Of a stretch of DNA of 64,000 nucleotides, positions 14,951 through 50,976 are shown in pieces. The DNA is taken from contig OX485807.1 of the NCBI GenBank assembly GCA_950295325.1, forward strand, positions 32,580,440-32,644,439. The letters run 5' to 3'. The stretch is from Polytrichum commune. Its lineage: Eukaryota; Streptophyta; Polytrichopsida; Polytrichales; Polytrichaceae. Position numbers and translations under genes: made by a program. The number at the start of each line of letters is the position of its first letter. The stretch's first letter is position 1. The notes below the pieces were generated by a model. It saw nothing but the letters and a program-made list of their open reading frames with translations. It did not search any database and had not been told where the DNA came from.

Positions 14951-15402
14951 GGGACGAAGCTATTTTGCGAGCGGTGAGCGGTAACTTCCGCGATATTTTG
15001 ATTAAAATGTTATTTTAAGGAGTAAGTTTAGGGTATATATGGACTAAATGTATTTTAAGTAATTTTTTTTTCTAAACTTAGTGAACAGTGGGACCTATGG
15101 CCGTGGACAATTAAGGGCTATGATATAGGAAAAAATGTTATTGTATCAGTGAAAAATATGGTTTAGGGGCTTAAATTGAACATTTGGAACTAATATCAGT
15201 AATAAATATGGGTTTGTCTCAAGTCAAACATGTACTGTTTCAGTACAAGGAGAATTAGTGGTACTCCAAAAAGGTCACGCAACTTTGGAAAAGAGAAATA
15301 CATGTGGTGCGTCAAATGTCTTGTAGTGGCCCTTTTAGTATCACTACATCATGATTATAAAAAATCTTGCATACATATGTTTCTTTAAAGAAACTGAAAA
15401 CT
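14951..15402. repeat. Left TIR and subterminal region of the 36-kb element
   Basis: The TIR covers 14951-14982. The following AT-rich stretch (GATTAAAATGTTATTTTAAGG, GGGACCTATGGCCGTGGACAATT at about 15088-15110) has degenerate counterparts inside the right end of the same element (ACCTATAACCGTGG, complement near 50835) and inside the right end of the outer MULE (GGACCTATGCCCATGG, complement near 54350). This ties the ends to one family. It also holds the 3' flank of the - strand transposase. Confidence 0.7.
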
Positions 15403-18400
15403 CTAAGAGTCAAGGTACTTCAGTAAACCAGCCTCCAAAACTCGCTTCACTTCGTTGAAGCTAAAACTAGCTGCATGAATGAACGTGTCTGAATCTGAGT
15501 CCAAACCACACACTACAGTAAACAAATAGTACAAATGCTTACAGTTGGCCCATTGACCATTTTTTCCAATTGCTTTAGTCGCCATCTCCTTGAAGTTAGG
15601 ACAAGTGCATGCTGGCAGCTGTGAAATCGTCAAGTAGTATTGCTGAACCTTTGGGGGCGTGCCGGAATCCAACGAGACAATGCATCCTAAGGCAGGGGCT
15701 GGAAGCATGCACAGTTTGTGCACTTTGGCTTTCAATGATAGGGCTGAGGCACAATTATTGGAGTGTTTTGTTGACGGGGCCTTTTTGTTGCGCCTAATCA
15801 ACTTCCCTGAACGGTGGGTGGGAAACTCATCCGGATATGCAGGAGTCGTGTAGCTTGCTAAGTCCAAAGGTAACGGGTGGTCCTGAAAAATTCTGGAAGG
15901 TGTCATCTCCTTCCGTTGGGGCAGTCTAAATCCTACGTTTTCTAAAGAGAGGATCTCTTTGCAGGTTAAGTTGGTCCCCAACTTAACCGGCCATACCTCC
16001 GGAACGTTCAGGACTGAGACCACCCACCTCCTTTTTGTACCCTTAACGCATCTCTCAATGTCATCATTACAGAAAAAGAAGTCTTGAGGGTCCAATCTCT
16101 TCTTCCGATAGTTATCCATGAGGCCTGAGTAGGTAGGTGCAGCGGTGCTCTTCCCGTCTTGTACAATCCGAGCGACGCATTTCTTCTTGGTGATTGCTTG
16201 TAGAGCAAAGCAAGCCTTCGCAGATGTCTTAGGCAGCCGTGCGATGTGCCACTGAAAGGGTTGCATAATGTCTCCTCAATCGCGGTGACGTGGTGCCGAT
16301 CCACCCGTTGCGGAGCGTCGTGTGTTGGAAATTGCGGTTGGTCTTCATCTGCAGTTGTGGGAGAATGTGGAGTTGTGGGAGAATCTAGAGTTGTCACAGG
16401 AGGTGGAGAATCGTTCAGTCGGGCAGATCTGGTTTGGATGCGTGGTCGGGATATACTGATCTTGTCTGGCCTGTGAGATTCACGTTCGTCACCGAAAGCA
16501 GTATCCGGTTTACGCTTCAGAGAAACAAATACCTCTTCCCCTTCGAGGTGGGGAGTCTTGGTGCACCACTCGTCAGCGCCAGGCATCTTCAAGATGGCCT
16601 CATGCAGCGGTTTCGAGATTCCTGTTTTTACGGCAGACCTCTGAGCACGCCTCAGCTTCAATTCCTCCTTCGACGGTCCAGTTTCAGGGTTCTCTCCCTT
16701 CAGGAATTGGGAATATGCTGAGCACTGCATGAAAGCACGCACGAAGTCATCGATTGTTGCCACATAAAGGTCGCTGCCCCGATCGCCAGATTGCTGCTTC
16801 CACTTGTTGTGGATAGATTCAGCAAGGTTACAGGATGGCATTTCCGCTAGTTCAGCTTCACTTAGATCCTGCAATGCCCATACAGTCCGAATTAGAATAA
16901 TGGCGGAATCAATGTAGTTGAAGCATAAAGTGGGAACTATACAGGAAATATAGGGGGAAGCATAAAGTGGGAACTATACAGGAAATATAGAGGGAAGCAT
17001 AGACTTACCAACTCCATAAATCCACCCCATTGGCGGTAACGAAAATGCCAGAAGGCCAGCCAAAGCTCTAGTCGAGGTAGACCTTGTTCAGTTGCTGCCC
17101 CGGATGACATCCACCATGCCCGAATTGCCAAATACTTTGTCTCGGCCTCTGCCATCGATTTTGCATTCTTGTATTGCTGGCATAGTATTCAATGCTGATG
17201 TTGCAGGTCTTGACGGATATCGGCCTTGGTATGTTTCTCCAAGGACTGCGTCCAATGGAAAAGACAAGTCCTCTCTCTATCCACCATCTTCTCAGACGCA
17301 TCTCCACTTCCGTATATGATTCGAACAGCATTCCAGTTGGCTTGGGCACTGTCGGCCATGAAACCTTTAAAATTGACTTTGTCCACTCCATGTTGAGCCA
17401 TGAGAGCGTTCAGGTTCTTCCATACGACTGACTGGGCTGCAACATCTTCAGACTGCATGTCGCATACTGCGATGGTCATGACACGGCAATATGTGGAATC
17501 GTACACATGGCAAGCCATTGTCGTCCACGACCTGACCCGTTTGACATGGTCAAACATTATCCAGGAGTTCTCCAAGTCACCACCGGGTTGCATTCGTTTG
17601 ACCAGGTCGACTCCGCTGCCCGGTCCAACTTCGGACATCTTGAAGACAAAGACCTTGTCCATGTCCGCTCCTTGCCCTCGAAACCTATTCTGCTGCACGA
17701 ACCTCCAATTGCTAGCACCGCGTAACTTGGTAATACTGTCCATGACTCCAAAGCGACGCATAGTCCTGAACGTGGTGACTGCGTTACGAATGTTGGGCGA
17801 GGTGAGGTGCTTACACCGATCGAAAATAACTTGCAGCTCATCCAACTCCAAGATCTTTTGTGGGTCACCTTCTTTAGCAAGGAGGAGTGGGCCCAGTACT
17901 TCCTTTGCAGTTTCAAGCACAATAGCGGAGCGAGTGGCTGATGGGGTGCGTTCGACTTGATCCCCAATCAAGGTGTTTGTCAAATCGATGAAGTCCCGAT
18001 GATCACCTGACTTGACGGGATGGTCGTGAGATCCCAAGTGCACACAAGCCCTCGTCATGTGAGGTGTCGCGGTAACATAGTAGATCTTGGCAGTGTAGAC
18101 AGCAACACAGGTGGGAGGGACGTTACATGATTTGCAAACAACGGTCGAACCAGTTGGAGGCTTGGACCCTACTTCAAACAATTTCTCAGATAATCCTTCC
18201 CACTCTGTTTCATTCACTTGGGAAGTCCTGTGGTCTCGCTGAAGATACTCACAAACAGGATTGTCGCAACGGAGGTGGCCCAAACAAGAAGATGTATGAA
18301 ACAAAAGCTTGAGATCATTCTGAATATTGGTTGTAATTGTGCGAGACCAAGCATGGCCATCGTACCTTCTATCCATTCCACGAAGCAGCTTGGCCTTTGT

Positions 18401-19024
18401 ATTCTGGTCATGGTCACCTAAAGGTGGAAATTCGAAGATAACGTCCCCATCGTAACGAGGGGGAAGGTAATCAACCTGCTGGAGTCTGATCGCATCAAAG
18501 TTAATTCGAGATAACACACGTTTGGACCGCTTACGAGCTCCAAGGCGCATCAATGAATGAATGATACTGACAACATGACTTGTCACAACATTGGCCTCAC
18601 CAGGATTACGATACGGACTAACAGGAGGAGTTTCCTTGCGAACTACTTGTGGAGAGAGCGAAGCTGGGACTTTCCTCTCTGATTTTAGGAATTCAACATC
18701 GCCGTCGGAATCATCACTCAACTCATATATTGTATTTAGACCGGGCTCAATTTTGACCCTAGCCAGCACCGGTCTCTCAATGCTAACAGTGGACGACTCC
18801 TTAGGTGTTAGAAGTTCAGTCGAACACTCTAACATAGACTATGAGACTCCATATACACGATATTTTCCAGGCTTCAGCAACCAAAACGCACCGACGTCAT
18901 TCTCTACCCTAGTTTGACGAATTGCATGTGAAACTAGACCGGTATGATCGTCAAAAATTTCTTCTTCGACAAAGATAGTGACCTCACGATACTGAAACCT
19001 CAAACTCAATGGACAACCTGTTTC
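15403..19024 (-). pseudogene. MULE transposase of the 36-kb element (paralog of the outer copy)
   Basis: The order on the - strand is: N-terminal module (LSLRFQYREV, VEEEIFDD, FWLLKPGKYRVYG), a linker with KIEPGLNTIYELSDDSD, a Cys/His zinc domain (CLGHLRCDNPVCEYLQ, CVHLGSHDHPV), the DDE core (TTMACHVYDSTYCRVMT, FKGFMADSAQANW, ERTCLFHWTQSLEKHTK), helical AIRAWWMSSGA, FWHFRYRQWGGFM, and a C-terminal SWIM finger (CTCPNFKEM then CKHLYYLF). An intron lies at 16869-17020 (GTAAGT...TGCAG). Defects are an in-frame TAG near 18840, a TGA at 17189-17191 where the other copy has Arg (CGA), and a frameshift near 16255. Translation from the ATG at 18835 would give a 548-residue product lacking the SWIM part. 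It is 452 bp from the left TIR, so it belongs to this element. Confidence 0.85.
16869..17020 (-). other. Intron of the MULE transposase
   Basis: GT-AG intron at the same place as the one in the outer copy (51254-51358). It contains a direct duplication of about 36 bp (GAAGCATAAAGTGGGAACTA and following, at 16919 and about 16956). Confidence 0.75.
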
Positions 19025-19367
19025 ATGTAGGAATAGAATGTACTACAATAGTAGTCATCCCTTTATCACCACGAATTATCTGACATGGAAGGATATGATT
19101 ATGTAGAAAAGGATTTAGCGCCGCCTTTTGTAGTGTATTAATGCAGGGTGGATTAACAAAGGATCAATTTAAGTAAGTGCAGATTAACTATCTAAATACA
19201 AGAAAATGTGAACATAACGATGGCGCATAGATGTTAATTCTGACAGACTTGAAAATGATATATAAGATCTGTTTGCTCCAGATGTTTGTTAGAGATGAAC
19301 ACTAGGTCGAGAGCAAGAGCAGAACGAGAACTAAGGAGGAATAGTGAGAAACAGAGGCGAATTGAAA
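19025..19367. promoter_or_regulatory. Remnant of the shared upstream region between the transposase and the ParB-like/methyltransferase gene
   Basis: The two genes point away from each other. Without the LTR at 19368-24634 this stretch plus 24635-24698 would form a compact bidirectional upstream region of about 400 bp. No TATA box could be assigned with confidence. An upstream exon of the transposase may also lie here, since the N-terminal module is incomplete at 19024. Confidence 0.4.
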
Positions 19368-19724
19368 TGTGGTACTTTTGGGCCACCCCCTTTCGAGGGA
19401 GCCTAAAAGTATCACACAAGCCCTTCGGTGAAGGTAGCCTGCACTTGCAGGTGCCCAAGCCGAACCCGGATGATAGGTGTATAACGTGAGTAGTTAGATT
19501 TTTAAGGGAGATTAAATATGCGTCGTAGTACCTCCGGAGGTTGGGCCTTAGTTTTTTGCTAGTAACACTATATTCGTTAAATTGAGACTTTTTGGGCATT
19601 TTGAGATAATCACATAAATAAGAACAAGGATAAATGGAACACATATTGGAGAAAGTTGTAAGATGCGAACACTTTGAAGCGGGTGTTTAGAACAAGAACC
19701 CCATTAATAACTCATAATTGGGAT

Positions 19725-19970
19725 TGTTTAGGGTGGGCAATCCAAACCTTAGGCCAAGTTGAAGGGGAAATCTTAAAACATTTATATTATCGCACAAAAA
19801 CTTGTATGAATATGGTTTAGGTAGCGCAATCCAAACCATAGATCATATTGAAGGGGAAATATGTGAACCAATATAATATAACATACAAAATATTCCAAAC
19901 TCATATTTGTGATGGTTTAGGTAGGGCAATCCAAACCTTAGACCATATTGAAGGGGAAATCATGTGACAC
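19725..19970. repeat. Subterminal repeats of the deleted element
   Basis: Three copies, about 85-100 bp apart, of a segment beginning GGGCAATCCAAACCTTAG and continuing with ATTGAAGGGGAAAT (near 19733, 19819 and 19924). They may be transposase-binding sites, which is inference. Confidence 0.65.
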
Positions 19971-20101
19971 TTATATTATTGCAAAAAAAACATACAAATT
20001 ATGGCATGTAAAATGCATAGCATGCTAACACCACACATCCATTGGATAGTGCGACCCAAAATGTTCTTGCCTATGGCTCACAACCCTACGCCTACTATGG
20101 C

Positions 20102-20826: not shown

Positions 20827-20848
20827 ACAAGCTTCGTAGGCTAGTCTT

Positions 20849-21325
20849 TTGGGAAATGGAGAGGTTCGAGAGGAGTTTGATGTGGACGACCATTACGTGG
20901 GGCCTGCTAGTAGTCGTCCGCCACCATCTTTCCGCATTGCAGTGGATTGTCATGAAGGTTATATGCTCATTTTGCGTCCTGGAGATGAGACATATGCAAA
21001 GCCAGTGTGGGTGGCAAGAGCTTTGTCCAAACCAAATTTTGTAACTTCCAGCCCTCATTTTCGACAAATACAAGTAGAGTACTACCGACCGACAACACGG
21101 AATGAAGATGTTGTTCGGCATTATACAGGCTGGGATACAAACCCTAACTTTCGGTGGAAGGTGGATTCTGAGCATGGTCCATCTTGGGTAGATACAGATT
21201 CCATATTCATAGCATGGAAACCACGGAAAAATCATAGTGGATCAGTGTCCATCCCTCAAAAGTACATAACTTTTGCAAAAGACAACCTTGCTCGGATCGC
21301 AGAAGAAGCAACCCACGTTGAATGA
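20849..21325 (+). pseudogene. C-terminal remnant of a DUF7869-type transposase
   Basis: About 158 codons that align with the C terminus of the transposase at 58498-59394: EVREEFDVDDHYVGPA versus DVREEFAMDEHYVGPA, VDCHEGYMLILRPGDE versus VDCHEGYLVLVRAGDE, and IPQKYITFAKDNLARIA versus IPQKHIHFAKDNLARIA. The catalytic domain is absent because the sequence before 20849 is the other gene, so the deletion junction lies about there. It is not functional as a transposase. Confidence 0.8.
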
Positions 21326-24300
21326 GAAGTTGGTAGGATTGTGTTAGCATGATTATAGTGTAAACTGTAATTCGACGAATATATATTACTCATATATGTG
21401 CTCCTCAAACTTGGGGCAAAGTTTGGGTAGAACTTGCGAATGCTATATTGTTTGGGGTTGGATGAATATCCATTTACTATATTTCAATACAGTTGTGAAG
21501 TTCATTTTTTTTATTAAGTTTGGGACTAAATTTTCCATTGAAGAAAAATGCATTTATTGCATGCACTTTGTATGTTGCAATGTCTATATTTTATTGACCA
21601 TGCTAATAATAGAAATCATTTTATATGTTTCTTGGGTGAAACTAGTTTGGAGTGCTCTACCCAAAGTATTTTTGTAGATGAAGTTGGTGTTGAGTGCTCT
21701 ACCACATGTGCTTATGTCCACACATAATAGATTTGGGATATTAGAACATATAATATATTTGAGATCGTTCTCAATATAGTTTCGGAACACGGAATGTTGT
21801 TTGATCCATATATTAATTTGAGACTAGAGAAAGTCTCAATTTAACGAATATAGTGTTTAGTGTGGCTTTAAACTCCACTAACCAATTTCATATCTAGTTC
21901 TAACCTTAACCTACAATTTATTTTACGCGCAGATGCACCAGCCTTGAAATCAAGGCAATCCTAATTTGTGAATTGGAATGGTTCTGATACATCCAACCGG
22001 GTGTGACTCATACCACCCTAACTCAACGAACGGAATAACGACAATTTGATGGACCATTCAATTCTTTCCTATTTCTTTATTAGTTATATTTATTTTTCTA
22101 AGCGGGGGAACTTGGCCTAAGTCCCACCCTTCACACAAATTCCTTCTTAATTACTTAATTTTGTTTGCACGTCCTAACTCACTACATTAACATATTAGGC
22201 ATCACCCCTTACCTGGTTGGTGCACCCCTTACTTCGGAACCTTCTAAGGCCTCGTGCAGGTCCTTTGAAGGTCGAGTAACATCTCAAACCCTTCGGACAT
22301 CAATGGTTCGAAGGGTGGTATCACTCTACCGACTTAAGTTTCCGATTCGGGTCTCTTGCCAACAAGGGTTTACGATTTATTTTGTATGTTTTGATTGTTA
22401 AATGTGTTTACACTGGATAGACCACGAAATGCAACTCAATAGGACCATGGTGACGGACAACCTGTAGGTTCAACCTATTGCGCAATCTTCATAAATTGGG
22501 GCCATTACTCCTAATCTATGGGGCCAACAACATAATAGTGGATTCGCGGGTCATTAACCCCACCTTTCCACCAACAACATTCAGAGTGGTCGTGTCGGTA
22601 TTTAATCCGACTTACCACACACGGAACTTGCTAATAAATGAAGCTACTACCACAAAACATACCAAGGGCCCCGAAAACAATGGAGTTGGGTATTCCCTTG
22701 GCGGTCAAGTGGTCAAGCCACTTGACCTTACGAGATAGGTGAGTAGGTTTAGAGATGTGTACCTTAGTCGCGCTCCCTCCAACCCTAAATGAAAGGCTAG
22801 CGTTAGTAAATTTACCTCAATTCTCCTCGGTTGATTCGGGCTCGATGTAGGCCGAGCCGCTACCTCCTTCCTTGCTCCACTTTCCGAACGTCGACCTTGC
22901 CTCCTTCTTTGTAACTAGTTTGGTAGTAAGCGTACTTTAGTTAACAATTAAAATATAAAGTATTTATTTTGCACTGTAATTTAATCCTAAGCATAATATT
23001 TATACTTAGTGCACCTAATTATCTTTCCAATGATCTAAAAATCACTTTAATCGGATAAGAATTGCAAAAGTTATGAGGGTTGGAAGTGTGAGGTCGATTC
23101 AACCGACCCTTCCAACCCACCTATCTACCTTCTGACTTCAAAAATTCATAGCACATTCTTTATTACTTGGATCTAGGCTTTCCTTATACCATTGGAAAGC
23201 TATGAACAAGTTCTAACTAGGAAAATTATAACATCAGCATGCTAAGCTAATAGAAATTCAGCAGACTCCTTGTAACAAAGCAGTCAATCAAGAAGGCTTA
23301 AACTATGTATCTCGCCTTCAACAATTCATATATAATTCAAATCTTATTCAAATCAAACGTTCTATATGACCCTGGAGAGATATTAAAAAGATGAATTTGA
23401 TAAAAATATGTGATTAGAAAGGTAAGCCAAAGTGAACCCAGTAGATCCTCTGTAATGAAGCAGTCAACCAAAAGTTCTCAAACTATATGTCCCATCTTGC
23501 ACAATTCATATCTAATTCAAATCATGCTCAAATCAAATGTTCTAAGCCATTTTGGAAAGCTACACAAAAGTTCTACTTGGGAAAAATATAACTTCTTGGA
23601 ATTAAAATTCCTATTGGGCTTGCAGGTCTGATCCAGCAGCCGCTACCCACAAGACCACCCAGTTTTTTCTACTCCATCTTTGAAAATCCGTAACTAATTG
23701 TCATCTTAACCAAATCACAAATGGGAAACGGCTATGGATAGCTATAGGAAATATTTCTAAGTAAAAAATGATAAGTATCTTTTTCTAGCTTCTGAACTAA
23801 GCCTTCAAGGCATTAGCAGATGAGGTCTACAATGCCTCCACTCAAAAATCTACCATCCAACCAACCTCTACAAAAGAAAGAATCATTTTGTTGGTGTGTT
23901 AATAAACACACATTCTAACTAGGAGAGAGAGTAGAGGAGGTTCTCAAGCCTTTCTTTTAGGCCATTGAGAATGCATGCTAAAGGATTTTTTCCTAACTAC
24001 ATTGACGCAGGGCTTCGCCTAAACATTAGAGGAAGAGAGAGTCCTACAAGGTGAAAGGAGGGGTTTTTAAACCCTCTCACAAAAGGATTGGACCCCTCCT
24101 CCACCGGATCCATTTTTCAAACCCTTTCCTGAAATTTTGGCTCGGGGGTTTTCCCGGTTGAGGTTGCCACCCTCTCGCCGAGGTGGCTCCGACGGATACC
24201 TTAGAAATCTTTTTAATTTTTTCCATCGAGTTGACAAGGGGACAAGTGGGCAAGTAGCCCCCTTGTTTTTTTTTTTTTTTTGTCTTCAAAAGTCTTCAAG

Positions 24301-24698
24301 CCGATTTTGTCTTCTTACGCAAAACACCTCCAATAGTCTTGTGTGCCTCACACTAACTAATAAACTAACACTTGCTTAGCTAGCATCTACTAACATTTGC
24401 TTAATAGCTAGCATCTACTAATATTTGCTTAGCTAGTTGTTTTTACTAGCTAGCATATTTTTTTCTACTTTGCTATCTTCTAGTACTACTTAGTTTCATT
24501 TTGACCTTCTTTCTTCTAGGCTAAATGCTAAATGAACTAATTTTTCCTAAATTCCCTATCAATTCTAACTTTTAATGCTAACATTCTAACTAAAAGTGAT
24601 CCCGCGGAGTGGTGGACCACTCAAAGGGTTCACATGAGAGAAGGCAAAGGTTAGAATCAAGAGTAAGCTTAGGGACGCCGTACAATTTGTGGACAACA

Positions 24699-40100: not shown

Positions 40101-43100
40101 GTAGCCTAGGTTGTGATTGGGCCTGAAATATGATTTAAGTGTGAAGTTGGTAAGGCTAATATAACGCCTGAAATCCAATTTTTGAAAGTCACATTTGTTC
40201 AAAATAGTGTGTCTCGGTCCCGAGACACCCTATACAAGGGTATTAAGTGGGCTGAATTCAATGTGAAATCAATTGGGTTATAAGTTGAATAGGTTGTGAT
40301 TACGCCTCATTCTGATATAAGTGTGATGTGAGTTTGGGTTATATGTAGCCTAGGTTGTGATTAGGCCTGAAATCTTATTTATGTGTGAAGTTGGTAAGGC
40401 ACATATAAGGCCTGAAATCCAATTTTTGAAAGTCACATTTGTTCAAAATAGTGTGTCTCGGTCCCGAGACACCCTAGACAAGGTTGTTATGTGGGCTGAA
40501 TTCAATGTGACATCAATTGGGTTATAAGTTGAATAGGTTGTGATTAGGCCTCATTCTGATATAAGTGTGAAGTGAGTTTGGGTTATATGTAGCCTAGGTT
40601 GTGATTAGGCCTGAAATCTGATTTATGTGTGAAGTTGGTAAGGCACATATAAGGCCTGAAATCCAATTTTTGAAAGTCACATTTGTTCAAAATAATGTGT
40701 CTCGGTCCTGAGACACCCTAGACAAGGGTCTGAAGTGGGCAGACATCAGTGTGAAATGAATTGGGTTAGAAGTTGATAAGGTTGAGGTTAGGCCTGAATC
40801 TGATTTAAGTGTGAGATGAGTTTGAGTTATATGTAGCCTAGGTTGTGATTGGGCCTGAAATATGATTTAAGTGTGAAGTTGGTAAGGCTTATATAAGGCC
40901 TTAAATCCAATTTTTGAAAGCCACATTTGTTCAAAATAGTGTGTCTCGGTCCCGAGACACCCTAGACAAGGGTATTAAGTGGGCTGAATTCAATGTGACA
41001 TCAATTGGGTTATAAGTTGAAAAGGTTGTGATTAGGCCTCATTCTGATATAAGTGTGAAGTGAGTTTGGGTTATATGTAGCCTAGGTTGTGATTAGGCCT
41101 GAAATTTGATTTATGTGTGAAGTTGGTAAGGCGCATATAAGGCCTGAAATCCAATTTTTGAAAGCCACATTTGTTCAAAATAATGTGTCTTGGTCCCGAG
41201 ACACCCTAGACAAGGGTCTTAAGTGGGCTGAAGTAAGTGTGAAATCAATTGGGTTAGATGTTGCTGAGGTTGTGATTAGGCTTAACTCTGATTTAAGTGT
41301 GAAGTGAGTTTGGGTTATATGTTTCTTAGGTTGGGATTAGGCCTGAAATCTGAATTGTTCAAAATAGTTTGTCTTAGTCCCGAGACACCCTAGACAAGGT
41401 CTTAACTGGGCTGAACTATGTGTGAAATGAATCTTGTTAGGATGTTGGTAAGTTTTTTGTTAGGCCTGAAATGAACCTTTATTGGGAAGTGAGTTTGAAT
41501 TGGATGTTGGTAATAATGTGATAAGGCCTGAAATCTGAAAGTCGGTTTTCTTATCACAACCTGATGTGTGTGTGATTTCAGTGTTGGTGAAATGATTCTT
41601 GGATTGTAATTAGGCCTGATATCTGATGTGAGTGTGAATTTAGTTTATGTGCCAAGATGTTGATTACGCCAAAACATATTATTTGACTTTGAATTTAGTT
41701 TGGGTTAGTTGTTGGGAAGGTTGTGATTAGGCCTGACATCAAAATTGAAAAATTAAGCATTGGATTTTCCGCAGAGGTTGGGAGCTACCGATCTTGAAAC
41801 TTACGTTTCAAATGCTATTGAAGGCTTAATGGACCATGATGAGCAGAATGTTGGGGAAGAGGTAAGTACTCACGTAGTTAAATAATGTGTGAATTAGTTG
41901 TACCTTATGCCATGCAGCTTTGTGTCTTAAATACGTACCTGTGTTTTGTAGGTAGAGTGCCCCACCCCCCAGGACTCACCGGCAGCGACTCAAGATTCAA
42001 GAGAAACTGCAATTGATCTTGACAGTTCTGATGAAGGTCAGGATGAAGATGAAGAGGGACTTGGAGATAAGGATACGTTTGACGGGGATGAAGATGAACT
42101 TAGATCCCGTCAAAAATTTAATTCCGTGGCCATGATCTCTCAATTGAGAGTCAAACCTTTCAGTTCATCAAGGTTCAATATTCCTTTATGTAGAATGCTT
42201 GCCATGCCTATGGTGAGGCCAACACTCTCAACTGATCTTGATAAATTAGAGCAGGAGTTTGTCCATGGGTATAGAGAGGGCTCCTCAGTTTTTTATGTGA
42301 CATTAACAGATGAAGAAGGCAAAACACAGGAGGTGTCTGAAGCTGATAAGGCATCCTGGGGTCCCACTTGGAATTCAAAAAATCAAGAATTTAATTCGTA
42401 TCTTCAGTCTGTTCCGGAGTTAGCCGGTTTCAAGGATTTCATGTTCTTTGTATGTGACGGTAACCATAGGCGTCAGGCTTGGTTAAATCATATTGAAAGA
42501 CTTCACAAAACAGATGAGGCCTGGCATTATATGGTGGATAGCATCCTACTTGACACAAAAGGCAAAATTGGAGTTGTTATGCAAGTGATCAGGGTTGTCT
42601 ATTGTGTCGTGACGGAGGGTAATCCCGGCATAATGTCGTGCCGTCACGACACGTATCCGTCACGACATTATGCCGGATGCTGTCTTTATCCTGACGGACT
42701 TGAATTTTACCGATTTTTTTGTGTAATTACATTAACCCAATTCAGACACGTAGGATTTACAATGTCCACGTGTGATGACATGTCAGCAAAGTAAAGGTAA
42801 AGTGGGGAAAAATTTACTAGAGCCCGTCCGCCCCCCCGTCCGCCCCTGTTCCCGACCCCGCCCGCTCCGTTCCCAACCCCGTACGCCCCGTTCCCCCCCC
42901 CCCCGTCCGCCCCTCCGTCCACTCCCCCGTCCGCCCCAGTTTTTTTTTTTTTTTTCCCTCCCCCCCCCCCCTTTCCCGTCCGCCCCATTTTTTAAAAAAA
43001 AAATTCCCCCCCCTCCGTCCGCCCCTCCGTCCGCTCCCCCGTCCGCCCCAGTTTTTTTTTTTTTTTTTTTTCCCCCCCCCCTTCCCCGTCCGCCCCGTTC

Positions 43101-46100
43101 CCCCCCGTCCGCTCCCCCGTCCGCCCCCGTTCCCCCCCCCCCCCGTCCGCTCCGTTCCCGCCCCCGTTCCCGACTCCGTCCGCTCCGTTCCCGCCCCCGT
43201 TCCCGACTCCGTCCGCTCCGTTCCCCCCCCCCCCCCCGTCCGCTCCGTTCCCGCCCCCGTTCCCGACCCCGTCCGCTCCGTTCCCCCCCCCACCCCCGTC
43301 CGCCCCACCCTCGTCCCCCGTCCGCCCCACACCCTCCTTAGTCGTTTTTTACTACTTTGATTTTAACAAAATGGTAAACAAAATGGCAAAATGATTTACC
43401 TGGCGCTAGGCATATCCACGACCACGTCGGCGTTTTCTGCCACATAGGACGCCACCTTGGCAAGAAGGTAAGTATTTTACCCACCCTAGTCCGTTCCCCC
43501 TATGTTGACCCTACGTGGACCCTATTGTGTCGTGACGGAGGGGTCCGTCACGACATGACACGACATGACGGCACGACACCGTCATGACGTCGCGATAGAC
43601 AACCCTGCAAGTGATGCATAACATCAACAAGTAAGTTTTGTTAATTAATTTTTAATTCTTTCTATGTAAAATACTTCTTGTTATACCATTAATGTCATGT
43701 GCTAATTCGCCCTTTTTGATTGATAATTTCAGGCATATTGAAGACTCTCACGTCAAGACCAACTTTGTTCACACCCTTTTTAGGATTCAAAAGTATGGTC
43801 TTATGCCAATCGAACATTATCAAGACATATTGACTCCATCGGAGTTCAAGAGGTGCAAGAGAACTCAAAATGCCAAAAAAACTTGGTACACATTGAATCT
43901 TCAAGTATTCACGAACTTCATCTTCCGGGTATGATCTCTATAATATGTACTGCATTGTTTTAATCACTAATATATTGTCATTATCTAAAATCAAATGATC
44001 ACCTAGGTTACAGTATACTTGGATGACTAACTAAGTCTACCCCTGTGCAGCATGAACTTGGACTTGCTGCAGATGAGGGTGTTCGACAACTTGTGGAGCA
44101 ATCAGATGTAGAAGTGTCCGCCGCTGAAAAAGCAACCGCTATGAAAGTTGCTACAAAGAAAAGAGCCAAGGCACTTCATAAGAAAATGTCAAAACTAGTT
44201 GCTCTGGCAAACCCGGACTTGACGGATGGATGGCTTCGAGAGGTATAAACTCTACTTTACAAGCACATTTTTCAATCTTCATGTTCTTTAATGACCCCTG
44301 AGATTCTAATAAATAGCTATATGTTTCGCAGATTGGACGTCACTATAGTCTTAACTCAATTACACCCGAGCTCAATATGGAGAAATTGCAGTTGATCGTT
44401 ACTGCAAAAGCATCGGCCGCTTCTAAGGTTAAATGGTTGGAATATTTAAACTCCTCTGCATCTACACGTGAGGCCCGCAAACTGCCCCCTAAGCCCATCA
44501 ACGAGAAGAAACTGGGTGCATTTCTAGCTAAGGCGTGTTTTTGGGCCGGAGTGAGTTAATACTTCCCAATCAATTCGTTTAATTTGTTTGTCTTGAGGCC
44601 TGAAATCTGTTTGGGTTATATGTTGCTTAGGTTGTGATTAGGCCTGAAATCAAATTTCTGACATTAAGATTTGGTCAACAAGGGTCTTAAGTGGGTTGAA
44701 TTAAATGTGAAATCAATTGGGATAGATGTTGCTATGGTTGTGATTAGGCTTGAATCTGATATAAGTGTGAACTGAGTTTGGGATATATGTTGCTTAGCTT
44801 GTGATGATGCCCGACAGCTGATTTTAGTGTCAAGTGAGTGATGGTTAGACTTTGGTAAGCTTGTGAATAGGCCTGAATCTGATGTGAGTGTGTAACCAGT
44901 TGGGTTAGATGTTGCTATGGTTGTGATTAGGCTTGAATCTGATTTAAGTGTGAAGTGAGTTTTGGTTATATGTTGCTTAGGTTGTGATTAGGCCTGAAAT
45001 CTGATTTAAGTGTGAAGTTGTTAAGGTGTTTAGTAGGCCTGATATCAAAATTCTGAGAGTAAGATTTGGTCAATAAGGGGTGTCTCGGTCCCGAGACACC
45101 CTAGACAAGGGTCTTAAGTGGGCTGAAGTAAGTGTGAAATCAATTGGGTTAGATGTTGCTATGGTTGTGATTTGGCTTGAATCTGATTTAAGTGTCAAGT
45201 GAGTTTGGGTTATATGTTGCTTAGGTTGTGATTAGGCCTGAAATCTTATTTAAGTGTGAAGTTGTTAAGGCTGCTATAAGGCCTGAAATCAAATTTCTGA
45301 AAGTCAGTTTTGTTCAAAAAAGTGTGTCTCGGTCCCGAGACACCCTAGACAAGGGTCTTAAGTGGGCAGACTTCAGTGTGAAATGAATTGGGTTAGAAGT
45401 TGATAAGGTTGAGGTTAGGCCTGAATCTGATTTAAGTTTGAGATGAGTTTGAGTTATATGTAGCCTAGGTTGTGATTGGGCCTGAAATATGATTTAAGTG
45501 TGAAGTTGGTAAGGCTTATATAAGGCCTTAAATCCAATTTTTGAAAGCCACATTTGTTCAAAATAGTGTGTCTCGGTCCCGAGACACCCTAGACAAGGGT
45601 ATTAAGTGGGCTGAATTCAATGTGACATCAATTGGGTTATAAGTTGAAAAGGTTGTGATTAGGCCTCATTCTGATATAAGTGTGAAGTGAGTTTGGGTTA
45701 TATGTAGCCTAGGTTGTGATTAGGCCTGAAATTTGATTTATGTGTGAAGTTGTTAAGGCTGCTATAAGGCCTGAAATCAAATTTCTGAAAGTCAGCTTTG
45801 TTCAAAAAAGTTTGTCTCGGTCCCGAGACACCCTAGACAAGGTTATTAAGTGGGTTGAATTCAATGTGACATCAATTGGGTTATAAGTTGAAAAGGTTGT
45901 GATTAGGCCTCATTCTGATATAAGTGTGAAGTGAGTTTGGGTTATATGTAGCCTACGTTGTGATTAGGCCTGAAATCTGATTTATGTGTGAAGTTGGTAA
46001 GGCACATATAAGGCCTGAAATCCAATTTTTGAAAGTCACATTTGTTCAAAATAATGTGTCTCGGTCCTGAGACACCCTAGACAAGGGTCTGAAGTGGGCA

Positions 46101-49100
46101 GACATCAGTGTGAAATGAATTGGGTTAGAAGTTGATAAGGTTGAGGTTAGGCCTGAATCTGATTTAAGTGTGAGATGAGTTTGAGTTATATGTAGCCTAG
46201 GTTGTGATTCGGCCTGAAATCTGATATATGTGTGAAGTTGGTAAAGGTGATATAAGGCCTGAAATCAAATTGTTGAAAGCCACATTTGTTCAAAATAGTG
46301 TGTCTCGGTCCCGAGACACCCTAGACAAGGGTCTGAAGTGAGCAGACTTCAGTGTGAAATGAATTGGGTTAGAAGTTGATAAGGTTGTGGTTAGGCCTGA
46401 ATCTGATTTAAGTGTGAGATGAGTTTGAGTTATATGTAGCCTAGGTTGTGATTGGGCCTGAAATATGATTTAAGTGTGAAGTTGTTAAGGCTGCTATAAG
46501 GCCTGAAATCAAATTTCTGAAAGTCAGTTTTGTTCAAAAAAGTGTGTCTCAGTCCCGAGACACCCTAGACAAGGGTCTTAAGTGGGCTGAATTAAGTGTG
46601 AAGTGAGTTAAGATTAGAAGTTGATAAGGTTGTGATTAGGCCTGAATGTTGCTTAAGTGTGTCTAGGTCCCGCCAAGGGTCTTAAGTGGGATGAATTGAG
46701 TGTGCAATCAATTGGGTTAGATGTTGCTATGGTTTTGATTAGGTTGAATCTGATCTAAGTGTGAAGTCAGTTGGGTTAGATGTTCCTAAACTTATGATTA
46801 TGCCCGAAATGTGATTTTAGTGTCAAGTGAGGTAAGGTTAGAAGTTGATAAGGTTGTGATTAGGGCTGAATCTGATTTAAGTGTGAATTGAGTTTGGGTT
46901 ATATGTTGCTTAGGTTGTGATTAGGCCCGGAATCAGATTTGATTTTGAATTTAGTTTAGGCTAAATGTTAGTCAGTTTGTGATTAGGCCTCAGCTGAATT
47001 GTGCATATGCGCTTATTTGAATTCGGGGAGCTTCTATTATATTTTCTTTCCACAGATATCCGACCAGGCTTCCATTATCTATGAAGAAACAGTGCGTCAA
47101 GATAGACCGGTTATCAACTTTGAAGTGCCCAGCAAGCCCTTATCCTTGGTTGCATACATCGAGGATTGTAGAATGAAGTTATGGGACAATGCATTCCCCA
47201 CCTTCTTCCGAGGGCAGAATGCTTTTAACAAAACTCACGAATTTGAGGGCTTCAAAGGAACTGACTTGATTGTGAGAAGAGTACTCTTTCGGTAAGATTT
47301 ATCCTTCTCCAACTAGAACTCTTATTGATTTGTCATATTGATTTGGTTGTTCACATGACATGTATTTTGATTGCAAGGTATATAACGATGAGGTTTTTTT
47401 TAACCCGCAGGTATTTCAAGTACGAGCTCCTTGCAAAAGGAGCAATAACAAAAGAAGATCTCCCAATATTTCTCTCTACATGGCTTGACAGGTCGAACTC
47501 AACGTGCATGTTCTCAGCAAATCAGCAGCGGACTTGGTCTACCTCGCATCTCACAGGAGGTGGATGGTACCTCGACTGTGCTCCTAGTTTCACTCCCTCC
47601 TTTGAAACTGAACTTAGGAAGTCGAGGGATGCAGTTGGAGAGTCTTGTGTTGAGATGGTTGATTTACAGGGCATTGAAGACGAGCACGAGAGGGCAAAGG
47701 CCCTCTCGCGACGTCTAGAAGAAGATAGGAAGAAAGCGCTTCAGGTGAAGGAAGCTAAGGAGAAAGCGGCCCAGAAAGAGATGGCAAAACTCCACAACTC
47801 TCTGGAGAAGACTAACAAGAGGGGGAAGAAGAAGATGAACCCCCCTCCAGAGCCAGAATGTAAGAGCCCACCTGCGCCTAGTCCTACATATGACTCTGGT
47901 TCTCATGCTCCAATTCAGTCTAGAGGAACCAAACGTGATTCCTCCTATGAGCAGTTAAGCCAAGGAATCCTTGTTTTCACATCGGTTGAGGAGAATGATG
48001 GCCAAGTTGGGGAGTGGATTCAAAACTTCTCACTAGAGCAAGTCCTTGGTGGCGACACGGGCAGCTTGAGTCCATTATATGACGAGTTAAAGAGCTTCAT
48101 TTCTAAGGTACCATACTGCTCAACAACTTTGTTTTGTTTTTCATTCAATTCTAATTCTCAAGCTGCGGAGTCCCATGAATGAGTTCTCAAGTTTCTTTCA
48201 ATCATTCATAGGTCATCATTCTCATTACAATGTCATCCAACACATTTCTTTGTTAGTTTTCATTGTATGAAAACTTCAGCACTTGCTTAAGTCGTTGACT
48301 TCTATCTGTTTTTGTATGTTATATGCGATTTCATTACATACACATCTCCTTCTCATGTATTTGATCTCGAAGTCAATTAATTGATTCACATTAATTCAAA
48401 ACGGTGTCAAGTTAGAATGTGTGCAATCTTTGATTTTCTTGTCGGAGTTTTGATAAATTTATTTTCATGCGCAGCACTCAAGTGACAAAGGCCGACGCTA
48501 CAAAGGATCTGCTGCGGAAGTACCCTGTGTGGACTTGATTCTTGCAGATCTTCCAGAGGGCCTTCCTGTTCCAGGAATTTCGAATCCACCTTCGTCTATT
48601 CCCGCCTGGAACATAGAACCTGAGGATTGGTTTCAAACAATCTTTGATTTCGCAGACCATCACCTCCAAGATGATGGGGCGATAATTTTGTTCCATCCTT
48701 TTCGAATGTCTACAAAGTCAATCATTCTTGGGTACTGTTCCACGTATGGGTTTGCTGTTTGCAAAGAGTGGTGGGGGATGAACAAGCTTCACCTGACGTC
48801 ACCAATTAATCCAGTCTTGACTGTGAGTTCATTTTATGATATGACTTATTGCTAATTTGATTGATAGCTGTATCTTATGTTATTAATCTTGTGAAACTAA
48901 TCTTCCATTTCATTTGCTGGAATGTGCTTAATGATTTTTGTCTTATTTCGTAAGTAAAGTAATTAACTATTTTTGTAATCTGCAGACCATGAGGTTTGGA
49001 ATAACTTTAGTTGTGAGGAGCATTCCGGAGGTGCGTGCTTCCAGATTTTGCTTTCAACACATCCCTGCACTAGACCGTCATGGGGTTGATGTGGCACGGG

Positions 49101-49960
49101 ATGACATTCTCCAGAACTTGGTGTCAAGGGAGGATCAGTTAATGGATGGATCCACCCCTTGGCGTGGTCCTCGCGAAAAATCCCTCGCCCTTATACAAAT
49201 GCTCATTCAGGCATCTTCTTCACCCGGGGATATTGTTCTAGACTGCTCTACAGCTACGGGTACGTTGAACATCTCTTCATGTTTAAGTAAATAACCGTTG
49301 ACCATTTAATGTTAATTAATTTTTATGTTGTTTGAGATCTGAACTTCATTGTTTTCTTATTTTGCAGGAGTTTCTATTCATGCGTGCCGCAATGTGAACC
49401 GTCACATTGCGGCACTAGAGGCTGACAAGGCAATTTTTGAAGCCTTGATCGCTCCTCTAATTCGATCTGCTTCGGCCATAGAAGTGAAATCAAGAGATGT
49501 TGTCATGTCAGAGGATCCAGATAGCGAAATCATTGTTGTTCAAAAGATCGTGAAGAAGTCAAGGTTTAGTAAGTGAGTATAGCTACTATTTCTACTACTA
49601 GTGATATATTTTCTTATTTGCTTTCATATGAGGCGGTTTTATGACCATGTTGCCATTTGCATTTGCAGAAGCGGTAATTTGAGATACCCTAGTCACCGCC
49701 CTTTTTTTTGGGACCCTAAGTTCTATCCAAGCCTTCCAAAGTCATGGCGGCTCCCTTCATACGCAAATGACGTTGCCAATGAATTAGCGGAAGGTTCATA
49801 TCGTACATTTAGACCTAAGGAGTTGATGCTAAGCGGTATAGAGTATGTTGATTTAGAAGCTGTTGAGTCTGAGGATGAAGGTTCTTCAGATGCAGATAGT
49901 ACAGATTCTAAAGTCTCTGTAGCATTATCTAATAATTGTGATTTCGATTATATGTCTTAG
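24699..49960 (+). CDS. ParB-like domain / beta-class DNA methyltransferase-like protein, 12 exons, element-borne
   Basis: Exons by GT-AG junctions: 24699-24935, 25028-25108, 41775-41861, 41952-43630 (interrupted at 42590-43607), 43733-43928, 44051-44242, 44332-44550, 47056-47291, 47411-48107, 48475-48822, 48986-49259, 49368-49572, 49669-49960. All phases agree, giving about 1,238 residues once the insertion is left out. Around residue 304 lies CDGNHRRQAW, the DGNHR-type motif of ParB/sulfiredoxin-like domains. A Lys/Glu coiled-coil-like part follows near 730-780. From about residue 885 the order ILADLPEG (motif IV position), WRGPREKSLALIQML (X) and PGDIVLDCSTATG (I) fits beta-class N4/N6 DNA methyltransferases. 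Motif IV is DLPE instead of (D/N/S)PP(Y/W) and motif I lacks the usual FxGxG, so catalysis is doubtful. Such fusions are known in phages. The acidic C terminus ends at TAG 49960. A role in transposon biology is inferred from location. Confidence 0.75.
25260..29034 (+). repeat. Intronic satellite array 1 (244-bp units, 1219-bp higher-order repeat)
   Basis: It starts as loose 60-bp-like repeats (AGGCCTGAATCTGAT, GTGTGAA) to about 25990, then becomes regular with a 244-bp period. Each unit ends in the near-palindrome GTGTCTCGGTCCCGAGACAC followed by CCTAGACAAGG. Blocks of five units repeat almost exactly every 1219 bp (for example 26019, 27238, 28457). Short open frames here are by-products of the repeat. 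Confidence 0.92.
29040..31877 (-). mobile_element. Solo LTR, family 2, copy 2 (2838 bp, inverted)
   Basis: It starts TGTGAACCCTTTGAGTGG and ends AAAAGTACCACA on the + strand, with a perfect 5-bp duplication ACCCT (29035-29039 and 31878-31882). It interrupts a satellite unit right after GAGACACCCT, and the unit continues with ACCCTAGACAAGG. It is the reverse complement of 19368-24634 without the 2.3-kb insertion, and so shows the empty site of that insertion. Confidence 0.9.
31883..35835 (+). repeat. Intronic satellite array 2
   Basis: About sixteen 244-bp units with the same near-palindrome. It continues array 1 across the LTR and is interrupted at 35840 by another LTR-like insertion. Variants of the palindrome (GTGTCGCGG, GTCCGGAGAC) occur but most copies are exact, while the rest of the unit varies more. 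Confidence 0.92.
35841..37596. mobile_element. LTR-like insertion, family 3 (1756 bp)
   Basis: It starts TGTAGTAAGTTTTTGC and ends AAATCAGTTCTACA, with TG...CA ends and a TGTAG/CTACA inverted terminus. It is flanked by the perfect 5-bp duplication GAAGT (35836-35840 and 37597-37601), which splits the satellite motif TTAGAAGTTGATAAGG. No coding region is seen. The interior is rich in CTATTGCC motifs. It is most likely a solo LTR of a third family. Confidence 0.85.
37602..41560 (+). repeat. Intronic satellite array 3
   Basis: About sixteen units of 244 bp, with a six-unit block repeated after about 1464 bp (for example GATAAGAGTTTGAATTATAT at 38618 and its near copy at about 40082). The array decays into diverged repeats between about 41350 and 41700, just before the exon at 41775. 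Confidence 0.9.
41775..42589 (+). CDS. Exon 3 and first part of exon 4 (acidic linker, ParB-like motif)
   Basis: Exon 3 (41775-41861, 29 codons) reads RLGATDLETYVSNAIEG then LMDHDEQNVGEE, a duplicate of exon 2. After a 90-bp intron (GTAAGT...TTGTAG) exon 4 begins at 41952 with a strongly acidic run (DSSDEGQDEDEEGLGDKD). The globular part follows (ISQLRVKPFSSSRFNIPLCR, EFVHGYREGSSVFYVTL) and then CDGNHRRQAWLNHIERLH. The exon is interrupted at 42590 by a hAT-type insertion and ends at 43630. Confidence 0.75.
42590..43607. mobile_element. Non-autonomous hAT-type element (1018 bp) inserted in exon 4
   Basis: The ends CAGGGTTGTCTAT / ATAGACAACCCTG match the hAT consensus, and the 8-bp duplication CAAGTGAT (42582-42589 and 43608-43615) has the hAT length. 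Without it the codons read V-M-Q-V-M-H-N-I-N-K. The ends are rich in TGTCGTGACGG and its complement. The middle (42826-43335) is an extremely C-rich tract of CCCCGTCCGC, CCGTTCCC and C or T runs. It has no transposase. It breaks the host gene unless it is spliced out. Confidence 0.92.
42826..43335 (+). repeat. C-rich polypyrimidine low-complexity tract
   Basis: Over 500 bp dominated by C runs and CCGTCCGCCC / CCGTTCCCGA repeats, with T runs of up to about 20 and one A run near 42994. Long open frames on both strands come from this composition and are not genes. Confidence 0.9.
43608..44550 (+). CDS. End of exon 4 and exons 5-7
   Basis: After the insertion, the last bases of exon 4 (HNINK, donor AA/GTAAGT at 43631) join exon 5 (43733-43928, HIEDSHVKTNFVHTLFRIQ). 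This continues the helical part expected after a ParB-like motif. Exon 6 (44051-44242) and exon 7 (44332-44550, ending CFWAG/GTGAGT) are Lys/Ala-rich and helical. All junctions keep phase. Confidence 0.75.
44560..46990 (+). repeat. Intronic satellite array 4
   Basis: A second intron of the same gene (44551-47055) is filled with the same satellite. The edges are loose 60-bp-like repeats. About seven regular units at 45079-46570 carry the near-palindrome. The array stops about 60-100 bp before the acceptor of the exon at 47056. Confidence 0.9.
47056..48107 (+). CDS. Exons 8-9: unassigned domain and Lys/Glu coiled-coil segment
   Basis: Exon 8 (47056-47291) encodes ISDQASIIYEETVRQDRP and FRGQNAFNKTHEFEGF. 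Exon 9 (47411-48107, 232 codons) encodes WLDRSNSTCMFSANQQ and HLTGGGWYLDCAPSF, then a charged stretch (RRLEEDRKKALQVKEAKEK) and a Pro/Ser-rich linker. The first part is not a family I recognise. It lies between the ParB-like and the methyltransferase-like parts. Confidence 0.75.
48475..49960 (+). CDS. Exons 10-13: methyltransferase-like domain and acidic tail
   Basis: Exon 10 (48475-48822) carries VDLILADLPEGLPVPG (motif IV position) and DDGAIILFHPFRMSTK. Exon 11 (48986-49259) has WRGPREKSLALIQML and PGDIVLDCSTATG. Exon 12 (49368-49572) has VSIHACRNVNRHIAALEADK, matching the helix and acidic strand end that bind S-adenosylmethionine in beta-class enzymes. Exon 13 (49669-49960) has RPFFWDPKFYPSLPKSWR and an acidic Ser/Asp tail. 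The key catalytic motif is degenerate. Confidence 0.75.
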
Positions 49961-50976
49961 GTAGAATTTTGTGTCTTATTGCTTGTATAATAATATATTT
50001 TTGCATTTGATTGTTAATTGTCCGTTTAGTGCGGTAATCTTCATGGTTTTCCTTAGACAGTGAATTACATTTTGTAATGCCTTCTTACACTCTTACCCTA
50101 CACCCTCCTTGCACTCTATTATTCAATAAGACATAGAGGTAAACTACCTCATTATCCACCATAGCATCATCCATGTCACAAAATTCAAAACAAAACCCAA
50201 AAAACATAAAGAAATGTAGTTGTAAAAATATAGATCAAAACATGAAACAAAGACTAAGGAAAACTAAACCGAAAAACTAAACCAAAAAATTAAAGATGAT
50301 AAGTATAGAATATCAATACGTTTTTTAGAATTACAAAAAATAAGAAGAGAGACTGGAAGAAGAATGGAAGAATAAAAAAATCAGAAGATAGAATGGAAGA
50401 AGAATGGAATAACCCAAAAAAGGCTTGTGCATAAATATGGACATCATCCTATGTTTTTGGTTCAAATCAAACATCAAACCCCAAGAAATCCGAGGCCATA
50501 TCCAAAGTGGCCACTCCCACATGAAATATGAACCACTTGGCATGCCGAGACTCAACCTGAAACCAATGATTTGATGTCAAATTTATGGAGTCAGGTTGAA
50601 TGTAGCTAAGCATGAAACCCAAACATGGCATGCCCACATTCAACTGGAAACCATAAACTTTAATTCACCCTAAACATAAAACCCCTAGGCCTTGTCCAAA
50701 GTGGCCATGCCGAGACCGAACATGAAATCTAAGCCATTGGGCATGTCGAGACCCAAATTGATACCAATGATTCGATTTCAAATTTATGGAGTCAGTATAG
50801 CAAGCAAATACAGTATAGGTTCCTCAACCACGGTTATAGGTTCTTTTTGTCAATAAATTTGTCAATAAATATTTCAAAATTTAGCTCTACACTGCGGTAA
50901 TAGGGCATGTTTCACCACACAAAATTTCAATATTCTAGAAAACTCACCGCTCACCGCTCGCAAAATAGCTTTTCCC
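49961..50976. other. 3' flank of the methyltransferase-like gene and right end of the 36-kb element
   Basis: AT-rich, no gene. There is a diverged direct repeat of about 200 bp (ACCAATGATTTGATGTCAAA near 50551 and ACCAATGATTCGATTTCAAA near 50764, each followed by TTTATGGAGTCAG). The right TIR occupies 50946-50976. Confidence 0.6.

Follow-up and report, generated by a model that had tools for sequence, protein, structure and literature searches.

A MULE-like two-gene transposon in Polytrichum commune with a ParB-like/methyltransferase gene and a possible likeness to VANC anti-silencing systems

A 64,000-nucleotide stretch of the Polytrichum commune genome (GenBank assembly GCA_950295325.1, contig OX485807.1; here the window, C5:32580440-32644439) holds a 36-kb element with terminal inverted repeats (TIRs), in which a transposase gene stands beside a divergent gene (gene 2) with a ParB-like part and a DNA methyltransferase part. 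The locus raises the question of whether gene 2 is a lasting partner of the transposase or was merely picked up by one copy and, if it is a partner, what it might do for the transposon. One interpretation of the data, to which we give an even chance, is that the element belongs to an old, abundant family of two-gene DNA transposons resembling Mutator-like elements (MULEs), of which it is one copy whose transposase is broken, and that gene 2 would provide an anti-silencing system like that of the VANC proteins.

The limits of the element were established by comparison of ends within the window, which placed it at 14951-50976 (36,026 bp) between matching ends and a perfect 9-bp target-site duplication (TSD), GGAAAACAA, on both sides. 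The TIRs share an exact 26-bp core (14957-14982 and 50946-50971) and match only in part over the outermost 5-6 bp. Joining the flanks in silico restored an open transposase frame, and two paralogous empty sites, at C3:13.62 Mb and C3:12.06 Mb, aligned without a gap over 400 of 400 bp of the joined flanks, with identities of 99.0% and 97.75%, respectively. Because the joined flanks are open and two related sites run straight across the insertion point, the insertion is real and its target site is known. An initial annotation of the window had proposed these same boundaries and a reading frame rejoined by excision, and had named empty sites at orthologous loci as a check; the boundaries and the rejoined frame were borne out. 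The genome searched comprised 407.8 Mb in 64 contigs, seven of them chromosome-sized, and the match lists for ends, gene exons and repeats held 40 to 150 scored candidates each, so that all counts are lower bounds. At least 40 genomic copies were found for both the left end (83 bp; 40 scored of 104 first-look candidates) and the right end (197 bp; 40 scored of 118). In the eight copies with A-type ends that were read on both sides the TSD was perfect in five, kept 8 of 9 bases in one and was absent from two, while a TSD of at least 9 bp was present in both B-type copies.

The partnership of the two genes was then followed across the genome. Among the ends listed, 18 pairs lie less than 70 kb apart in the correct orientation; a transposase is present in all 18 of these TIR-bounded copies and a gene-2 exon in 16, the two exceptions being 6.6 kb and 56.8 kb long. 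A divergent transposase, located upstream on the opposite strand within 60 kb, accompanies 75 of the 150 methyltransferase-exon matches listed, compared with 7, 6 and 6 for the other three arrangements, and 200 random placements averaged 1.8 divergent pairs and never gave more than 7 (second pieces of one transposase copy and one right end are left out of the pairing counts). A transposase 3' end is found within 5 kb of 35 of the 40 left ends listed, and a methyltransferase exon within 8 kb of 31 of the 40 right ends listed, always in the same orientation. Six hand-picked distant loci were also examined (X52, C3_1.7, C4_43.3, C2_37.6, C3_5.2 and C7_18.6), where the ParB sequence is 35-45% identical to that of the present copy, and at five of them a transposase lies upstream and is read from the other strand. 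The two genes are thus supported as genome-wide partners under shared ends and not as a single capture. The two-gene architecture had been put forward in the initial annotation, which held that a lack of gene 2 in most elements with these TIRs, or a gene 2 found mainly standing alone, would speak for a single capture; neither pattern has so far been seen in the TIR-bounded copies or at the distant loci.

The window itself provides a further example, as the 36-kb element was found to interrupt a transposase gene that belongs to a larger element of related type. Within the window this outer element covers 2328-54524, and its ends, recognized by related inverted repeats and by 11 bp that the flanks have in common, give a span of ~ 62.7 kb. 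Its own gene 2 is located to the left of the window (L018, C5:32570440-32580439), with the middle and methyltransferase exons on the opposite strand; its ParB exon falls within or beyond 5,000 masked letters, and a ParB exon is present in C3_13.6, a copy that is nearly identical to it (96-97% over 3.2 kb). Relative to the inner element, the methyltransferase exons are only 37-43% alike and the transposase C-terminal exon is 73% alike, and the same head-to-head gene order is seen. One two-gene transposon is nested in another, and disrupts the transposase of the latter. A 975-bp direct repeat (95%) was also noted at 3162-4134 and 51440-52412, both within the outer element. Elsewhere, a stand-alone host gene was considered and rejected for the one D-type methyltransferase copy inspected among the unpaired matches, C5:17.38 Mb, as this copy lies between TIRs in an element of 10.9 kb that has a perfect TSD, TTTGTACAC, and holds only the 3' parts of both genes.

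Both genes of the inner element point outward, as originally proposed: the 3' end of the transposase C-terminal open reading frame (ORF) is at 15403, only 452 bp from the left end of the element, and that of the last gene-2 ORF is at 49957, ~ 1.0 kb from the right end. This copy has a broken transposase: a TGA stands in frame at 17189-17191, and near 16.28 kb the frame changes, with the last two ORFs in different frames. Its open C-terminal frame has 290 amino acids, compared with ~ 500 or more in many copies. A putative D...D...E triad and a putative SWIM-type zinc pattern were read by eye; the sequence CNLAESIHNKW presumably holds the third acidic catalytic residue, and the C-x-C...C-x-H pattern is one that we take to be SWIM-like. 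The MULE domain PF10551 gave no match in five transposase members at a limit of E 10, with filters that drop most matches above 0.1, and hhalign comparison with two PF10551-positive proteins of the same genome gave a probability of 0.1%, a weak test as those two are near-identical. The C-terminal exon matched no Pfam family, NCBIfam gave no support for a MULE assignment, and the AlphaFold model of the transposase exon (predicted local distance difference test, pLDDT, 34.8) was too low in confidence to lend any. Of the MULE label given initially, the part that stands is that based on the ends, as TIRs are present and the TSDs are of 9 bp, as in MuDR and other MULEs (8-9 bp for the superfamily); profile and profile-profile matches did not follow. 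The name is plausible on the strength of the 9-bp TSDs, the inverted repeats and the motifs read by eye. It is also possible that the transposase belongs to another or an unnamed superfamily, because Pfam returned no transposase match and the comparison with the PF10551 proteins was empty.

The exons of gene 2 were defined by ORFs and by comparison of copies (Table 1), and from their order, orientation and conservation we infer that the ParB and methyltransferase exons probably belong to a single transcript. The ParB exon was modelled with AlphaFold from 12 diverse copies (mean pLDDT 71.9). Foldseek placed ParB, sulfiredoxin, Noc and SbnI in the first ranks (best E 0.08, probability 0.94), and VIA-align returned ParB-family proteins at all of ranks 1-12, including Noc, KorB and PadC, with Z of 7.5-9.1 over 84-100 residues, its output carrying the warning that a Z of 7 to 8 is common. 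At the sequence level a single weak PHROG ParB-like profile was matched (E 0.19); no sequence-profile match to the exon was significant, the PDB searched by sequence gave chance matches only, and of 35 pattern matches to ParB relatives in viral contigs 0 were confirmed. The model shows a predicted ParB-type fold in gene 2, at the level of the fold only, and the ParB-like label of the initial annotation was retained on structure searches led by that family (Z up to 9.1). C-rich tandem repeats (CCCCGTCCGCCCC) occupy 42823-43316, directly after the ParB exon and within gene 2.

The methyltransferase exons matched PF01555 at 6.6e-8, above the cut-off, and chains of DpnA at 4.5e-8 over the half with motif I; the match to CcrM, at 2.7e-6, was far below the cut-off. 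Phage DNA methylases were matched in 77 records, with 23-26% identity among the matches listed, over most of the domain. In the 30 elements aligned, motif IV begins with Asp in 27, with Glu in two and with Tyr in one, and its fourth residue is Glu in 26, Gln in two and Asp in two, and never aromatic; the motif IV of an active beta-class enzyme, (D/N/S)-x-P-(Y/F/W), was found in none of the 30. Three phage relatives have D-L-P-Y or D-P-P-Y. The spliced motif I (D-x-x-x-G-x-G) keeps the D and the last G, the first G being replaced by A, S or T in the readable rows. Because phages too can have L at the second position of motif IV, the changes that matter are the lost aromatic residue and the one glycine. 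The ratio of nonsynonymous to synonymous substitution (dN/dS) is 0.10-0.27 in most gene-2 exons when this copy is compared with A16 and AH, and by this measure gene 2 is under purifying selection despite its altered catalytic centre. A centre that is conserved but altered would be less in keeping with an ordinary methyltransferase than with a DNA-reading protein or a modified enzyme. The suggestion of a 'DNA-modifying' partner is uncertain, because the catalytic aromatic residue of motif IV is missing from 30 of 30 elements.

Comparison of copies further showed that the ParB part, the methyltransferase part and the transposase have been reshuffled among families. Elements with transposase C-terminal exons 88-97% alike have at least four methyltransferase types, 66-76% alike, whereas elements with transposases only 42-56% alike have methyltransferases 90-96% alike. 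In the transposase tree the A-type rows formed one group (support 100/99), and in the methyltransferase tree a single clade of A and A2 was rejected by the approximately unbiased (AU) test (p-AU 0.0009). Methyltransferase type ii, a group named from the identity table, was likewise rejected as one clade on the transposase data (p-AU 6e-7). C2_48.1, with too incomplete a methyltransferase, was left out of both trees, and transposase rows A10 and A16, which contain stops, were left out of alignment A2. Synonymous divergence (dS) between this copy and A16 is 0.07-0.18 for the transposase, 0.52-0.63 for exons on the ParB side and 0.03-0.12 for those on the methyltransferase side; the corresponding values for AH are 0.03-0.09, 0.48-0.70 and 0.59-1.45. 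An AH-type methyltransferase segment recurs in B-type elements at 96% identity, over 749 bp in B16 and over 491 bp in C1_32.7, and reaches ~ 0.1 kb past the last exon; the B-type ends differ, and the ParB-side exons of AH and B-type elements are 72-81% alike at the DNA level. Since dS is patchy and the 96% segment occurs in elements with different ends, recombination must have carried the ParB and methyltransferase parts separately from family to family. A chimaera at C3:36889560-36899730 (C3:36.89 Mb; L004/L005) combines A-type ends and transposase (93%) with a B-type ParB (71%) and B-type repeats, and as it has no matching target duplication it may be recombinant.

The non-coding parts of the element are rich in tandem repeats. 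The present element, AH, B16 and A10 have arrays in two kinds of place, the gap that separates the genes and the introns of gene 2. Copies A15, A12 and D24, which are without parts of gene 2, have arrays in the remaining inter-gene stretch; X52 has one array in the gap, and the partly masked C3_13.6 has none comparable. In this element and in AH, the same short motifs turn up in two or three distinct gaps, on a single strand, and are nearly absent from coding sequence, and the AH arrays in separate gaps have a common motif although their units measure 257, 37, 75 and 171 bp. Of the repeat clusters listed for three unit types, 33 of 35, 26 of 30 and 35 of 39 have a gene-2 exon within 20 kb, compared with 0.5-0.9 at random; the clusters were collapsed by hand from the matches listed, with several to an element, so that they are not independent. 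For clusters with a ParB match within 12 kb, ParB identity to this copy was 87-100% in the 26 clusters of unit i, 78-82% in the 21 of unit AH and 65-78% in the 28 of unit B. Identity of the divergent transposases, in contrast, was 91-100% for unit i (21 clusters), 91-95% for unit AH (16) and 52-53% in 13 of the 14 for unit B, the other one being the chimaera at C3:36.89 Mb. As the ParB classes sort by unit while the transposases of i and AH stay at 91-100%, the repeats follow the gene-2/ParB type and not the transposase. The initial description of the element as inflated by later insertions and satellites needs correction as to the satellites, which belong to the family, with arrays across it that occupy the inter-gene stretch and, in several copies, gene-2 introns as well; foreign inflation was rejected because the repeat units track gene 2 across it.

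Signs of past host methylation were sought in seven A-type transposase regions (two near-identical), by counting changes from the majority letter in regions L001-L009 and L075-L076. C-to-T (or G-to-A) changes amounted to 2.5% at CG, 3.8% at CHG, the highest of the contexts, and 1.3% at CHH, and A/T transitions to 0.5%. The excess at CG and CHG indicates past cytosine methylation, and is the plant-like trace to be expected of transposons methylated in these two contexts.

If gene 2 is an anti-silencing system, its protein would recognise the short-motif arrays in the non-coding DNA of the element itself, between the genes and in the gene-2 introns, and would spread or cluster on them through its ParB part. 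Its methyltransferase domain would serve chiefly to read DNA, or would be an enzyme whose catalytic centre is altered, and the bound protein would keep copies with matching arrays accessible for transcription or transposition even where the host methylates cytosines. The system would resemble VANC but be made of parts of bacterial type. A more detailed version, offered tentatively and on balance doubtful, is that components of bacterial partition and restriction-modification systems were put to this use, a ParB clamp joined to a methyltransferase turned reader, which loads on intron arrays that are continually remade, covers the element and thereby blocks or reverses cytosine methylation, that module swaps change which copies are served, and that the system is an independent counterpart of VANC.

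Several other explanations were weighed against this anti-silencing reading. Gene 2 could encode an active N4-cytosine or N6-adenine DNA methyltransferase that marks the DNA of the transposon itself and is targeted by the ParB part; the PF01555 match, the phage methylases that align over most of the domain and the purifying selection on the domain would all suit this, and the accessible part of PMC12477816 describes the same domain pair and opposite-strand arrangement. The Glu, Gln or Asp that takes the place of the Tyr of three phage relatives in every motif IV, together with the altered first glycine of motif I, makes it unlikely. A helper of transposition unrelated to silencing, like mudrB of MuDR or a protein for end binding or synapsis, would account for the strict pairing with the transposase under shared ends, and second genes such as mudrB and mutB are reported for other MULEs in what is accessible of PMC6446971. 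Methyltransferases 90-96% alike are, however, joined to transposases only 42-56% alike, which a dedicated partner might not tolerate, and the repeats sit away from the ends, so that this role too is judged improbable. A mere hitchhiker captured once is the least credible of these explanations and very nearly dismissed: copies A7, A10, A12, A15 and D24 are without all or part of gene 2, but its presence in several deeply diverged families, with gene order and orientation unchanged and at low dN/dS, speaks against this, and a one-time capture is contradicted by the pairing counts, the outer element and five of the six distant loci.

A different kind of alternative concerns the repeats. The arrays adjoin gene 2 or sit in its introns, and their covariation with it may, at least in part, be plain linkage. 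Linkage as the whole explanation, recombination having moved gene 2, its introns and the array immediately upstream as one block, is a real possibility, albeit one we hold to be somewhat below even. It has to be set against the separate AH arrays, which have a common motif in differing units, and against the coding sequence, where 0 of the six AH motifs listed occur; the presence of the AH motif in several non-coding places suggests that it is kept or remade there, A16 being an exception. Returning to the anti-silencing reading, a number of observations weigh against it or its supports, in addition to the limits already given for the Z scores, the repeat clusters and the type-ii group. A16 has arrays in the gap and in an intron with different units, and its ParB is ~ 89% like that of AH at the DNA level, yet its repeat unit is different, which breaks the same-motif and the repeat-to-ParB rules alike; in B16 the arrays in one intron run the opposite way. 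No Foldseek match to the ParB model reached E <= 0.001, the last gene-2 exon has a dN/dS of 0.53-0.68, and the A rows alone as one methyltransferase clade were not rejected (p-AU 0.065). One of the six distant ParB loci has no transposase within 15.4 kb, and 75 of the 150 methyltransferase matches listed are without a divergent transposase among the 136 transposase matches listed, although an unpaired match need not mean a stand-alone gene, given that the list of transposases holds only those 136.

Table 1. Positions of features in the window (position 1 is its first letter).
Feature	Position	Strand	Basis
Outer element, transposase pieces 2328-2468, 2734-3165, 4135-4575, 14283-14950	2328..14950	+	Broken up by other insertions
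Left 9-bp TSD GGAAAACAA	14942..14950	.	Flank comparison; related empty sites
Left TIR	14951..14982	+	End comparison; at least 40 scored copies of left end
Transposase C-terminal exon/ORF, C-x-C...C-x-H pattern	15403..16275	-	136 matches listed in genome
Transposase middle exon, CNLAESIHNKW; frame differs from next ORF in this copy	16278..16973	-	ORF and copy comparison
Transposase N-terminal exon, in-frame TGA at end in this copy	17189..18838	-	ORF and copy comparison
Long inverted repeat, left arm, nested between genes; outlying piece 19368-19563	21858..24634	+	Self-comparison
61/112/244-bp tandem repeats (unit type i), between genes	25361..29039	+	Repeat scan and genome search
Long inverted repeat, right arm	29040..31877	-	Self-comparison
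244-bp tandem repeats, between genes	31878..35842	+	Repeat scan and genome search
244-bp tandem repeats, end ~ 600 bp before ParB exon	37596..41353	+	Repeat scan and genome search
Gene 2, ParB-like exon (fold region ~ residues 55-216 of ORF)	41952..42791	+	ORF, AlphaFold, structure search
Gene 2, exon candidate	43656..43931	+	Conserved in A16, B16, X52, AH, C3_13.6
Gene 2, two exon candidates (44027-44245, 44317-44556)	44027..44556	+	Copy comparison
244-bp-type tandem repeats in gene-2 intron	44717..46990	+	Repeat scan and genome search
Gene 2, two overlapping ORFs (46987-47292, 47265-48179)	46987..48179	+	Conserved across copies
Gene 2, methyltransferase exon, motif IV (ILADLPEG)	48457..48852	+	Copy and phage alignment
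Gene 2, methyltransferase exons, motif I (DCSTAT-G/VSIHACRN across GT-AG intron)	48935..49573	+	PF01555 and alignment
Gene 2, last exon candidate	49583..49957	+	Copy comparison
Right TIR	50946..50976	-	End comparison; right-end copies
Right 9-bp TSD GGAAAACAA	50977..50985	.	Flank comparison; related empty sites
Outer element, remaining transposase (to 53786) and right end	50986..54513	+	ORF and end comparison

Other features of the region were recorded in passing. The long inverted repeat has arms of ~ 2.8 kb that are 95-97% alike and flank a satellite array, one arm piece being split off by ~ 2.3 kb. A transposon-like gene with a DUF7869 domain (PF25273, 2e-37) is located at 58498-60120; as judged by eye, an ORF piece inside the 36-kb element (20840-21325) resembles it, and D24 is seemingly inserted in an ORF of the same resemblance (L013/L014). 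A tandem unit of 179 bp with short palindromes (ATTTACGAACGCACGTTCGTAAAT) occupies 62393-62951.

Should the anti-silencing reading be correct, transposons of two distant lineages would have arrived, with unrelated proteins, at the same sequence-specific self-recognition through their own non-coding repeats, and one of the two systems would use domains, ParB and DNA methyltransferase, whose biochemistry is well understood. The ParB-methyltransferase genes of algal transposons would become a testable class with the repeat units as expected binding targets, and natural chimaeras such as that at C3:36.89 Mb would serve as ready-made controls.

Transposon genes with a ParB-like and a DNA methyltransferase domain have been reported previously from algae (Ectocarpus, red and green algae), and the accessory protein of Ectocarpus Sola1 is suggested to be a methyltransferase that marks the DNA of the transposon itself (PMC12477816, in its accessible part). 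As described there, the algal proteins likewise unite both domains in one protein of a large DNA transposon, on the strand opposite the transposase. Compared by description only, the Polytrichum elements differ in their 9-bp TSDs and MULE-like features, in the presence of several families in one genome, and in the documented module exchange, repeat covariation and altered motif IV. No report of a ParB-methyltransferase gene in MULEs was found in the open-licence PMC literature searched, which does not imply its absence from print. The domain pair in a transposon is accordingly already known, and as far as the literature searched shows, what is new is the transposase with its ends, the families within one genome, the module exchange, the change in motif IV and the link between repeats and ParB.

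Among phage beta-class DNA methylases, those of Brochothrix phage BtpYZU02, Cronobacter phage CR3 and Enterococcus phage BUCT824 have the same motif order, IV...I, and align over ~ 80% of the domain or more at 23-26% identity, but keep D-L/P-P-Y and G-S-G; the phage genes encode 239-261 amino acids, roughly the length of the methyltransferase part by itself. TIRs and two genes are features that the present element has in common with MuDR (mudrA/mudrB) and other MULEs (PMC6446971); in the accessible part of that source their second gene is not known to share the ParB or methyltransferase domains, and the transposase described here differs in having no match to the Pfam MULE profile.

The closest parallel in behaviour is with VANDAL21/Hiun of Arabidopsis, also a transposon with an extra gene, and one that is more variable than the transposase in the published account so far as it is accessible. 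That account has VANC21 binding a nine-base motif in tandem repeats, with loss of methylation, and places the motif arrays upstream of VANA21 and within VANC21 and VANB21 introns, among other sites (PMC5735166); motif and protein are described as changing together (PMC5735166; PMC10398659). The Polytrichum elements similarly combine an accessory gene with fast-evolving tandem repeats in their non-coding parts and with signs of host methylation. They differ in having TIRs, VANDALs being described as non-TIR in what is accessible of PMC6446971, and in their domains: VANC has DUF1985/DUF287, with no ParB or methyltransferase domain mentioned in the accessible text, and neither DUF gave a Pfam match in the gene-2 pieces scanned, the middle exons having been scanned only in part. 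Anti-silencing is known for VANC and putative for gene 2. The VANC parallel drawn in the initial annotation nevertheless gains support, because the repeats co-vary with the gene-2 type while the transposase is nearly constant, and an anti-silencing role for gene 2 may be envisaged by analogy with VANC21.

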